NCBI GenBank assembly: GCA_009911715.1
Contig: CP047880.1
Span: 1,798,001-1,862,000, forward strand
Direction: 5' to 3'
Length of the DNA: 64,000 nucleotides
Source of the DNA: Methanomassiliicoccaceae archaeon DOK
Lineage (GTDB): Archaea; Thermoplasmatota; Thermoplasmata; Methanomassiliicoccales; Methanomethylophilaceae
Part shown: positions 3,601-34,026 of the stretch, one piece after another
Layout of the letters: every line of letters starts with the position of its first letter
How positions within the stretch are numbered: position 1 is the stretch's first letter
Translations under genes and position numbers: made by a program
Notes under the pieces: generated by a model
The model's input: the letters and a program-made list of their open reading frames with translations, nothing else
Database searches by the model: none
What the model was told of the DNA's origin: nothing

Positions 3601-3612
3601 GGTGTGTATAAC

Positions 3613-4935
3613 ATGAAGGTCCTCGCCGTCGGCGGAGGGGGCAGAGAGCATGCGGCCGTAGAGGCCCTGTTCCGCTCCGGCTCCGAGATTTACGCTGTGA
3701 TGAAGAACGCCAACCCGGGCATCATCGCCAGGTCGAAGGAGCATCTGCTGTGCGACGAGAAGGACATCGAGAGGGTCTGCGCATTCGCCAGGGAGAAGGG
3801 GGTCGAGCTCGCGTTCATCGGCCCCGAGGCACCTCTCGAGAAGGGGATCGTGGACGCCCTCGAGGCGGCTGGCATCCCCTGCGCCGCGCCAACCAAGGCG
3901 GCCGCCAGGATCGAGACCTCGAAGACTTTCATGAGGGAGCTCGTGGCGAAGCACGGCATCGCAGGCAACCTGGGATTCGCCCACTTCGACAACGCCCGTG
4001 ATGCGGAGGAGTACCTGAAGGGCATCGACCACGAGATCGTGGTCAAACCCGTCGGACTCACGGGCGGGAAGGGCGTCAAGGTCCAGGGTGAGCACCTCCA
4101 CTCCTTCGAGGAGACCATGGACTACGTCAACGAGATCTTCGACGAGAACATCGGCGGCGCGGGAGTCATCCTGGAGGAGAAGGCTGTCGGAGAGGAGTTC
4201 ACCCAGATGGTGTTCGTCGACGGGAAGCGCATCGTGCCCCTCCCGCTGGTCCAGGACCACAAGCGCGCCTACGAAGGGGATGTCGGACCCAACACCGGGG
4301 GCATGGGCTCATACACCGACTCCGATCATCTTCTGCCGTTCATCACACAGGAGGAGAGGGAACAGTCCCTCGCAATCCTGCAGTCGATCGTCGACGCCAT
4401 GGCCGAGGAGGGCTGCCCCTACAGGGGGACCATGTACGGCCAGTTCATGCTGACCGTGAAGGGCCCCAAGATCATCGAGATCAACGCCAGATTCGGTGAC
4501 CCGGAAGCCATGAACGTCCTCTCCCTCATCGGGGACGACTTCGAGGACGTCTGCTACCGCATGGCCACCGGCACACTGGACAGGGACGTGGAGTTCTCCA
4601 AGAAGGCGACCGTCTGCAAGTACGTCGTACCCAGGGGCTACGGCGTGAAGTCCGAAGCAGGGCACGAGATCTCCGTCGACGAGGAGGGCGTCAGGAACGC
4701 CGGAGCCGTCGTCTACTACGCCAACGTCGACATGAAGGACGGGAAGCTCGTCACTGGAACGTCCAGGTCCCTGGGCGTCGTCGGTATCGCCGACACCCTC
4801 GAGGAGGCCGAGTCCAACTGCGAGGCTGCACTCAAGTTCGTGAAATGCGATGCCATGGCCGTCCGCCACGACATCGGCACCCGTGCGCTCGTACAGCGCA
4901 GGGTCGACCACATGAGGGAACTCCGTTCCGCATGA
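3613..4935 (+). CDS. purD: Phosphoribosylamine-glycine ligase
   Basis: PurD makes glycinamide ribonucleotide from phosphoribosylamine, glycine and ATP, the second step of purine synthesis. The 440-residue protein opens with the GGGGREHA nucleotide-fold motif, has the ATP-grasp loop GGKGVKVQG, the PNTGGMGSY segment, and EINARFGDPE with the metal ligands. I chose the ATG at 3613, which has a GGTG ribosome binding site just after the hypB stop; an in-frame GTG at 3604 is the alternative. The stop overlaps the truA start as ATGA, so purD and truA are coupled. Confidence 0.95.
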   Translation: MKVLAVGGGGREHAAVEALFRSGSEIYAVMKNANPGIIARSKEHLLCDEKDIERVCAFAREKGVELAFIGPEAPLEKGIVDALEAAGIPCAAPTKAAARIETSKTFMRELVAKHGIAGNLGFAHFDNARDAEEYLKGIDHEIVVKPVGLTGGKGVKVQGEHLHSFEETMDYVNEIFDENIGGAGVILEEKAVGEEFTQMVFVDGKRIVPLPLVQDHKRAYEGDVGPNTGGMGSYTDSDHLLPFITQEEREQSLAILQSIVDAMAEEGCPYRGTMYGQFMLTVKGPKIIEINARFGDPEAMNVLSLIGDDFEDVCYRMATGTLDRDVEFSKKATVCKYVVPRGYGVKSEAGHEISVDEEGVRNAGAVVYYANVDMKDGKLVTGTSRSLGVVGIADTLEEAESNCEAALKFVKCDAMAVRHDIGTRALVQRRVDHMRELRSA

Positions 4936-5714
4936 AGAGAATCGCTGTGCGGTTCGCCTACCTGGGCGATGGATTCTCCGGCTCGCAGATACAGCCGGAG
5001 GTCCGTACGGTGGAGGGGGAGATGAGAGCGGCCCTCCACAAGGTCTGCGGCATGGACGACGACCGTCTGGACCTCCGCATAGCCAGTCGCACGGACAGAG
5101 GCGTCAACGCCCTTGGCAACGTCGCTGTGTTCAACACAGGCATCGAGGACCCGGACACCCTGCTCAGAGCACTCAACGCCGTCTCTGACGGCATCTTCTA
5201 CACCGCCTATGCCTAGGTGGACGGGGACTTCAACCCCCGTCACGCCTCGGCCCGGTCGTACAGGTACGTGATCCCGTCCGAAGGACTGGACATCGACCTC
5301 GCGCGTGAATGCGCGAAGCTTTTCATCGGCGAGCACGACTTCGTCCGGTTCTGTCGTCCGGACGGGAAGCCGACGGTCGCGACAGTGGACTCCATAGACG
5401 TCTCCGCAGAAGGGGAGACGATCGTCCTGACGTACCGCGCCAGGTTCTTCCTCTGGAACATGGTCCGTAGGACCGCGGCCGCGATAATCTCAGTGGCTTC
5501 CGGCCGCAGCAGTCTGGACGATGTCAGGTCGGCCCTTGAAGGAGAGGACATCAACTTCGGTGTCGCCAGAGCGGATGCGCTCACCCTCACGTCGGTGGAG
5601 TATGAGGGGCTGGACTTCACCCCCTCGTCAAGCAGCGTCCTCTCGGAGAGGGTTGACGAGTGCACGTTCTCCGCTGATCTCCGCAGAGGATTCTACACCG
5701 CCCTCCAGGATTAA
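4932..5714 (+). CDS. truA: tRNA pseudouridine synthase A with in-frame TAG (candidate pyrrolysine codon)
   Basis: TruA isomerises uridines in the anticodon arm (positions 38-40) of tRNA. From the ATG at 4932 the frame runs 94 codons to a TAG at 5214-5216, then continues unbroken for 165 codons to TAA. The first part holds the catalytic motif SRTDRGVNA with Asp55. The second begins VDGDFNPRHASARSYRYV, the conserved segment that normally follows directly in TruA, and later has ARFFLWNMVRR. The combined 260 residues match the usual family length, and reading TAG as one residue restores the family alignment exactly. In a pyrrolysine-using methanogen this is most simply a Pyl codon; a nonsense mutation or sequencing error is the alternative. 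Confidence 0.85.
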
Positions 5715-5739
5715 GAGAGCCGAGACGATTACCCTCGTC

Positions 5740-6312
5740 ATGCAGGGGTTTTCCGAGAGCATCCGCTCAGCGGCCGAGGAACTGGAAGGGATTGAGAACG
5801 AGAGGGAGACCGCCATCGCGGGCTCCCGCAGGGTCATAAGACTGAGCAAGAGGACGATCCATGCGATACACGTCGGGGAGGACTTCTCCGGACCTGCGTC
5901 GGAGATGAGGGAGGCGGTCACAGACCTCCTCCCTGCAGGATCCCGTCGGGTCGACTTCGGTCCCGTCCAGGACGCGCTCATGGAGTACTCCGAGGCGGCC
6001 ATCCTGGCATCCATCGTCGCCGAGGGGCGCGTACCCTCCTTCTCCGAAATCGGGGTTCCCGCGGGACCATGGGTCCTGGGACTGGCAGATTCCGTCGGTG
6101 AGCTCAGGAGGATCGTCACGACCCGCCTGATGGACGGAGACATGGATGGCGCGAGGCGCTTCTTCGGAATCATGGAGGAGATCAGCGGGGAGATCATGAT
6201 GCTCGACGTTCCCGACGCCGTCGCTCCCGTCAGAAGGAAGCAGGACATCGTCCGCGGGATCATGGACCGCACGAGGTCGGACATGACCACGGCGTCGATG
6301 ATGAGAATCTGA
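5740..6312 (+). CDS. Archaeal translin-family protein
   Basis: The 190-residue, all-helical protein matches archaeal translin. RRVIRLSKRTIHAIHVGE (about 25-42), a central DALMEYSEAAILASIV helix, then LADSVGELRRIVTTRLMDGD and a C-terminal KQDIVRGIMDRTRSDM are the recurring family segments. Translin proteins form octameric barrels that bind and sometimes cut single-stranded RNA or DNA; the archaeal role is not settled. The ATG at 5740 lies 25 bases after the truA stop. The gene is followed by a strong hairpin that separates it from the convergent surface-protein operon. Confidence 0.85.
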   Translation: MQGFSESIRSAAEELEGIENERETAIAGSRRVIRLSKRTIHAIHVGEDFSGPASEMREAVTDLLPAGSRRVDFGPVQDALMEYSEAAILASIVAEGRVPSFSEIGVPAGPWVLGLADSVGELRRIVTTRLMDGDMDGARRFFGIMEEISGEIMMLDVPDAVAPVRRKQDIVRGIMDRTRSDMTTASMMRI

Positions 6313-32342: not shown

Positions 32343-33278
32343 ATGAGCCCTGCGCTGGAGCCTATGTCGTTCGACGAGCTGTCCGAGCTGTACAGGGTGG
32401 AGATGAAGAGCAGCGCCATCACCCAGGTCAGGAAGGACCTGTTCAGGGCGATGGCAAACCTGCTCACGGCCCTCCGCCTGGAGTACGACCGCCAGATGGC
32501 CCTGGACCCCGAGTCCGTCATGTGCGAGGGGGCGGAGCAGCGCAGAAAGAAGGCCGAGAGGCTCGCCAAGGACGTCGTCCACATAAGGACCCAGAAGATC
32601 TGCCAGATGGCCATCAGGGGCGCGATGGGCGGAAGGAACACCGTCGACATGCTGACGGACGAGGAGAGGGACTACTACGAGAGAGTCCTCGACCTGTCCA
32701 AGAGGCACATGTCGGAGATCGACCGCCTGCGCGGAAGAAAGAACACCGTCGCCACGCACATCGACGAGGTCCACACGGTCGAAGAGAGTCATCCGGTTAC
32801 GGAGACCGCGGAACCGGCTCCCGCGGAGGCCGTGCAGAGCCCGGATGAGATCCCCTTCGACGACTCGCCGGACGACTTCCAGGACGAGCCCATCCCCGAC
32901 GATTTCGACGACTTCTCCGAGATTCCCCCCGAGAGCGGGAGCGTCCACACGGACGTCCCTCCGCAGGCGGATTCTCACATTCCGGCCCCGGTCGGACACG
33001 ACATGACAGCGGAGCCCCCGGCTGCGCCAGAACCCGCGGTGGAGACGGGGCCCGTCGCCGAACCTGAGCCGGTGCATCGTGCGGAGACTGCCCTCCCCCA
33101 GCCTGAGGCGGACGAGCTGAGGCCCATCCTGATAAGGGTGCTCGAGGACCTGCCGGAGTTCGCTGGACCGGACAGGGACTACAGACTGTCTAAGGAGGAC
33201 CTGGTCATGCTGCCGAGGGTCCTCGCCGAGGTGCTCATCAACACCGAGAAGGCCGTTCTGATCAGGCCTACGCCCTGA
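32343..33278 (+). CDS. GINS complex subunit (Gins51/15 type)
   Basis: GINS joins the MCM helicase and GAN/Cdc45-like nuclease at the replication fork. The 311-residue protein has an N-terminal helical A domain (SFDELSELYRVEMKSS onward, to about 130). A Pro/Asp/Glu-rich low-complexity linker of about 110 residues follows, then a C-terminal B domain (RVLEDLPEFAGPDRDYRLSKEDLVMLP). The A-then-B order is that of archaeal Gins51. The linker is unusually long. The 3' end overlaps the convergent MBL gene by 11 bases. Confidence 0.85.
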   Translation: MSPALEPMSFDELSELYRVEMKSSAITQVRKDLFRAMANLLTALRLEYDRQMALDPESVMCEGAEQRRKKAERLAKDVVHIRTQKICQMAIRGAMGGRNTVDMLTDEERDYYERVLDLSKRHMSEIDRLRGRKNTVATHIDEVHTVEESHPVTETAEPAPAEAVQSPDEIPFDDSPDDFQDEPIPDDFDDFSEIPPESGSVHTDVPPQADSHIPAPVGHDMTAEPPAAPEPAVETGPVAEPEPVHRAETALPQPEADELRPILIRVLEDLPEFAGPDRDYRLSKEDLVMLPRVLAEVLINTEKAVLIRPTP

Positions 33279-34026
33279 GCGTCCTCGTGTCCCCGGGGAA
33301 CTCCAGGCAGTCTATCTTGAGACGCCTTATGCCGGTGATGTCGGACACCGTCTCCCTCGCGAGATCCGGGATGTTGTTGGTCTTGCTGAGATGTGCCAGG
33401 AACAGCTGGCGGTTGGAATCGGTCATCGTGCGCCTGATGGCGTTGCCGCAGTCCACGTTGGACAGGTGCCCCCTGTCGCTCCCGATGAGCCTCTTGAGGC
33501 TCACGGGATACGGCCCGTCGACCAGCATCTTGTTGTCGTAGTTGGCCTCGATGACCGCGATGTCCGCCATCCTGAGGGCGGCCTCGATCTGGAACGTCAG
33601 CTTCCCGGTGTCGGTCGCCAAAAGAACGCTCTTGCCGTCGGCCTGGGTGAGGAACGCGTTCGGCTCGATGGCGTTGTGCGATGTGGGCAGGGGGGTGATG
33701 TGGAATCCCCTGAAGTCGAAGTCCCTGGCGGTGTCGAACGGCACATAGTCCACGTTGCCGAGGCTGAGCTGGGAGAAGGTGGCCGGGTTGCACATGACCG
33801 GCACGCCCAGTTTCCTCGCGGTGGCCCCTGCGCCCGACACGTGGTCGCTGTGCTCGTGCGTGAGGAGGATCGCTTTGACTGACTCCTTGTCCACGCCCTC
33901 CTGATCCATCAGCGACAGGATCCTCCTGCAGCTGACGCCGGCGTCTATCATGACGGCCTCGCCGTCACATTCAATCACGGTGCAGTTGCCATCGCTACCG
34001 CTGGCCAGAACGTGGACCTCTATCAT
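33268..34026 (-). CDS. Metallo-beta-lactamase-fold hydrolase (YycJ-like)
   Basis: The 252-residue protein has ASGSDGNCTVIE at the N-terminus and LLTHEHSDHVSG, the HxHxDH zinc site, followed by LATDTG and a late LAHLSKTNN. This resembles YycJ/WalJ-type nucleases or phosphodiesterases. It is the only complete gene in the window that ends in TAG; a TGA follows after one more codon. It lies 11 bases after the CBS gene and probably shares its transcript. Confidence 0.88.
   Translation of the reverse strand: MIEVHVLASGSDGNCTVIECDGEAVMIDAGVSCRRILSLMDQEGVDKESVKAILLTHEHSDHVSGAGATARKLGVPVMCNPATFSQLSLGNVDYVPFDTARDFDFRGFHITPLPTSHNAIEPNAFLTQADGKSVLLATDTGKLTFQIEAALRMADIAVIEANYDNKMLVDGPYPVSLKRLIGSDRGHLSNVDCGNAIRRTMTDSNRQLFLAHLSKTNNIPDLARETVSDITGIRRLKIDCLEFPGDTRTLRA

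Follow-up and report, generated by a model that had tools for sequence, protein, structure and literature searches.

Methanomassiliicoccaceae archaeon DOK carries a truA gene with a TAG codon inside its reading frame, and the question raised by this locus is whether the codon ends the protein or is read through as pyrrolysine (Pyl). The window that we analysed is a 64,000-nucleotide stretch of the genome, and the features at the locus, all on the + strand, are as follows.

3604..4935, +: purD, upstream of truA, with Pfam GARS domains
4932..5714, +: truA, predicted tRNA pseudouridine(38-40) synthase with one TAG read through (260 codons; TIGR00071, PF01416, 8q70)
4932..5213, +: N-terminal part of truA (94 codons), which contains the catalytic Asp in S-R-T-D55-R-G-V (TIGR00071, 7.6e-19)
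5214..5216, +: in-frame TAG, codon 95, putative Pyl codon judged by the reading frame and the codons of relatives
5217..5711, +: C-terminal part of truA (165 codons), with purifying selection as in the N-terminal part (TIGR00071, 1.9e-18)
5740..6312, +: translin-like gene, downstream of truA (PF01997, 4.1e-05, just below the cut-off)

The frame runs from ATG 4932 through the TAG to TAA 5712-5714 (94 + 1 + 165 codons), and it is continuous, with no base gained or lost around the TAG, as the original prediction from the letters alone had described it. The TruA homology which that prediction saw on both sides of the codon was also found, since residues 1-94 and residues 96-260 each matched TIGR00071 (hisT_truA) alone, and the curated equivalog cut-off of this model (142.85 bits) was exceeded only by the read-through product (147.9 bits). 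The read-through product also matched PF01416 in Pfam (4.5e-25), its residues 3-236 matched the TruA structure 8q70 in the PDB (2.5e-38), and the catalytic D55 in the R-T-D-x-G-V motif was aligned with 8q70 and 1dj0. By the equivalog model and the catalytic motif, the product is predicted to be a tRNA pseudouridine(38-40) synthase. A scan of genome contigs with TruA gave distant bacterial homologues only, and an AlphaFold2 single-sequence model of the read-through product had a mean pLDDT of 43.9, too low to be of use. The TGA of purD overlaps the truA ATG at 4932, and the two genes probably form an operon with translational coupling. We looked for a second intact truA and found none: the gene is single copy in a complete single-contig genome of 1,889,135 bases (99.8% complete).

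The gene was aligned with truA of relatives. The interrupted position, which had been called a variable one just before the V-x-x-D-F-x-x-R segment, proved to be more variable than 96.5% of the TruA alignment columns (top 4%), and the next conserved motif after it is V-D-G-D-F-N-P-R. The relatives have sense codons at column 95 (GAG, TGG, GTG, ATC, TTC, GAC, and others), which encode Glu (17), Arg, Phe, Val, Ile, Leu, Asp, Thr, Trp, Gly, His, Lys, Tyr, or Pro, and TAG was absent from this column in all other truA genes aligned. The nearest relative, whose truA is 79% identical, has GAG there. The true codon might then be a sense codon such as GAG, and the TAG, one base away from it, an error of sequencing or assembly. 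We consider this very unlikely, because the change is a substitution rather than a homopolymer indel in a single-contig genome of such completeness, several more genes of the genome are interrupted by TAG, and truA of one more species in the genus carries a TAG of its own. In that species (G011, stretch L026) the TAG is at codon 154, where the sister species has CAG; as the codons differ and the sister carries CAG, the two TAGs arose independently. The dN/dS values of the G011 gene against its sister were 0.096 before the TAG and 0.103 after it. The G011 genome is fragmented and 85% complete, its truA lacks the usual end stop, and pylS is present.

If the TAG were a recent nonsense mutation, truA would be an early pseudogene in which TAG terminates, and Psi38-40 would be lacking or made otherwise. 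Comparison with the nearest relative gave dN/dS of 0.157 before the TAG and 0.168 after it, which indicates purifying selection of equal strength on both sides, and no excess of private replacements was found in the 3' part of truA in the home lineage. A mutation of recent date would not show up in dN/dS, so these values cannot tell a young lesion from a kept one, and this is what speaks for a pseudogene. Against it, truA has only the one lesion and was found in 45/45 good family genomes, and the interruptions of truA in the family are of one kind: an internal TAG occurs in 2 of the 94 family genomes and an internal TAA or TGA in none (0/94). TGA or TAA flagged in three other truA genes fits the gene end, seen directly in G024 and deduced from the matched range in G037 and G090. 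In another genome (G019, L027 1501-2886), no stop separates truA from the translin-like gene that follows it in the same frame, which suggests a possible TruA-translin fusion.

The pyl genes, whose presence in the genome had been left open by the original prediction, were found as a complete cassette, pylT-S-B-C-D, near 1.2707 Mb. pylT (1270688-1270756; L006 12689-12757) has the anticodon CUA and the short-armed cloverleaf fold of tRNA-Pyl; it was missed by ARAGORN and was identified by eye and by pattern. The pylS product (match 1.1e-80) has 274 residues, and its match to the long enzyme is confined to the C-terminal domain. Methanomassiliicoccales typically have a PylS that lacks the N-terminal domain. 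pylB, pylC, and pylD each scored above the NCBIfam cut-off, and a PylS match was found in 28 of the 31 genomes of the genus. Just upstream of the cassette lie mttB, mtbB, and two mtmB-type genes. Each of the four has a single in-frame TAG, and Rfam elements sit exactly at this codon in mttB (PYLIS_3) and mtbB (PYLIS_2).

Terminator statistics were then taken over 883 kb of the genome, analysed as stretches (47% of the genome), with a simple purpose-made codon-usage gene finder that called 883 genes; its low-scoring calls include wrong-strand artefacts. Among the 736 well-scored genes, TAG was the end of 10 (1.4%), TAA of 7.5%, and TGA of 91%. Over all frames TAG is commoner than TAA, yet it is rarer as a gene end, and at least 5 of the 10 TAG ends are internal TAGs (four methyltransferases and hcp). 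A second stop follows three of the other TAG ends, within 24 codons in pylB, 1 codon in the gene at 33268-34026 of the window, and 15 codons in that at L097 14154-14729. Coding-like sequence continued in frame in 10 of 21 TAG-"terminated" genes and in 58 of 832 TGA or TAA genes (Fisher p ~1e-6; 883 kb), and because the TAG-"terminated" genes continue in this way far more often, the TAG of truA is more than chance. At least five non-methyltransferase genes besides truA are interrupted by TAG.

L077 11881-13422, -: hybrid cluster protein (hcp), in-frame TAG, 697 bits across the TAG
L066 1332-1868, +: sulfopyruvate decarboxylase beta (comE), in-frame TAG
L085 6552-7106, +: GNAT acetyltransferase, in-frame TAG
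L068 3642-4187, -: GNAT acetyltransferase, in-frame TAG
L074 8073-10337, +: TerB-domain protein, in-frame TAG

The TAGs of hcp and comE are absent from relatives and belong to this species only. The gene at 33268-34026 of the window (- strand), which encodes a hydrolase of the metallo-beta-lactamase fold, ends with TAG, one codon, and then TGA, and this TGA looks like a back-up of the kind that leakage at TAG would call for.

A pseudogene is thus also opposed by a genome in which at least four methyltransferase genes read through TAG and TAG is shunned as a terminator, and we regard it as unlikely. The same avoidance bears on a split TruA, in which UAG terminates, translation re-initiates at the GTG that directly follows the TAG (Val96, 5217) and opens the C-terminal part, and pieces of 94 and 165 residues assemble. 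GTG 5217 is a possible but unlikely re-initiation codon. Relatives usually have Val at 96, so it was not gained together with the TAG, no split truA was found among the 94 genomes, and such an arrangement requires termination in a TAG-avoiding genome, which makes it very improbable.

The best explanation, to which we give a probability of about 0.86, is that UAG95 is decoded as Pyl by tRNA-Pyl(CUA), giving full-length TruA, and that the codon came from a near-neutral one-base change and was not selected. Pyl would be made by PylB, PylC, and PylD, PylS would charge tRNA-Pyl(CUA), and the charged tRNA would decode UAG95 to yield a TruA of 260 residues with Pyl95. The TAG would have arisen by one base change in this species, most simply from GAG. 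Since TAG is treated as sense nearly throughout this genome, the effect would have been that of a missense mutation and near-neutral, and the codon would have been kept without selection for any Pyl function. We infer that Pyl is inserted efficiently at codon 95 and that TruA(Pyl95) is active. On genomic grounds TruA is a candidate Pyl protein: the pyl genes are present, the single TAG is flanked on either side by homologous sequence under selection, and TAG is depleted as a terminator and read through elsewhere in the genome.

We also searched for RNA signals near the codon. A PYLIS-type element was not found at truA within 4800-6000 of the window; such elements are reported as not obligatory (PMC4153887). 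A hairpin directly 3' of the TAG had a z of -2.9 for 100 nt and was not significant at 60 nt, and it is partly present in relatives without the TAG. It was dismissed as a signal and put down to chance or GC-rich coding sequence, as was a weak mir-248 match nearby. With its TAG not conserved and PYLIS missing, truA is not of the Pyl-dependent catalytic type.

The original prediction of Pyl in TruA has thus passed the genomic tests named beforehand, but the idea attached to it, that tRNA modification is coupled to the Pyl supply, is unsupported, because the TAG occurs in a single species as one of several such singletons in its genome, the site is tolerant, and tRNA-Pyl has no U38-40. Its positions 38-40 are A-A-C (numbering deduced from the sequence), and with A38, A39, and C40 it offers no uridine for TruA, so a feedback loop from TruA to the Pyl system is not expected. 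TruA might in principle act as a sensor, full-length only with charged tRNA-Pyl, so that methylamine and Pyl status would set the pseudouridylation of anticodon arms and, through it, translation; we would be very surprised if this were so. Output of TruA would need some available Pyl, and this need would be a by-product, neither an adaptation nor evidence of regulation. Nothing points to a role of Pyl in TruA.

The recurrent TAG end of pylB is more intriguing than the truA case. pylB, which encodes the first enzyme of Pyl synthesis, lies at L006 13611-14666 (G000:C1:1271610-1272665) and ends with TAG, as it also does in L098, L099, L102, L103, L104, L106, L124, L156, L165, and L166. This end was found in 8 of 21 species of the genus (the home species and seven more) and in 3 of 13 of another genus. 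In the same genome sets, TAG ends were seen in 11 of 47 readable pylB genes and in 2 of 168 truA, purD, pylS, and hcp genes (Fisher p ~1e-6, a value that ignores shared descent), one of the two being the G011 truA, which is not a normal end. The pylB tree requires a minimum of four changes of the TAG-end label, which persists along long branches, and in the home genus read-through would add about 19-24 residues and cross the pylC start. Autoregulation of Pyl synthesis at the level of its product is a possible explanation. In several relatives the usual pylC ATG lies four bases downstream of the base that opens the pylB stop, and in the home genome this ATG is ACG; the first ordinary pylC start there is GTG 14683 (L006 14664-14690), which gives about 5 residues fewer.

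Archaea in which all TAG codons are read as Pyl were reportedly described in 2025. A genome that uses TAG as sense would gather Pyl codons at tolerant sites, and ordinary enzymes would come to need the Pyl cassette. Such dependence would be a ratchet that makes the pyl genes hard to lose, which has been suggested before for other genes (PMC4153887). If Pyl95 is confirmed, a conserved housekeeping tRNA enzyme would join the Pyl proteins outside methylamine metabolism. The Pyl encoded by TAG in MttB, MtbB, and MtmB is catalytic. truA resembles their genes in its in-frame TAG and in the read-through machinery; however, their TAG is conserved, whereas that of truA belongs to one species and falls at a variable position, and the PYLIS elements of the home mttB and mtbB have no counterpart in truA. 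Another parallel is Thg1 (tRNAHis guanylyltransferase) of Methanosarcinales, which PMC8211752 names among the known Pyl-containing proteins. It is, like TruA, a tRNA-processing enzyme with Pyl, but it belongs to a different enzyme family, order, and step, and the Pyl of TruA is only predicted. The Pyl in Thg1 was reportedly put down to neutral evolution by Heinemann and co-workers in 2009.

Within the order, 16 putative non-methyltransferase Pyl genes and 1.6% TAG terminators were given for 'Ca. Methanomethylophilus alvus' (Borrel et al. 2014, PMC4153887, Table 7), and 46 in-frame-TAG (amber) genes were counted for ISO4-H5 (PMC5011839). Both are like the home genome in that ordinary conserved genes carry one in-frame TAG and have homologues without it, and TAG is rare as a terminator in the home genome and in M. 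alvus alike. truA is missing from the M. alvus list in Table 7 and is not among the genes named in the available part of the ISO4-H5 report. It adds to the predicted non-methyltransferase Pyl genes of the order, with neither the mechanism nor the class being new, and unlike the M. alvus and ISO4-H5 lists, as far as the available text of the latter goes, it comes with measurements of how variable the site is and of selection before and after the TAG.
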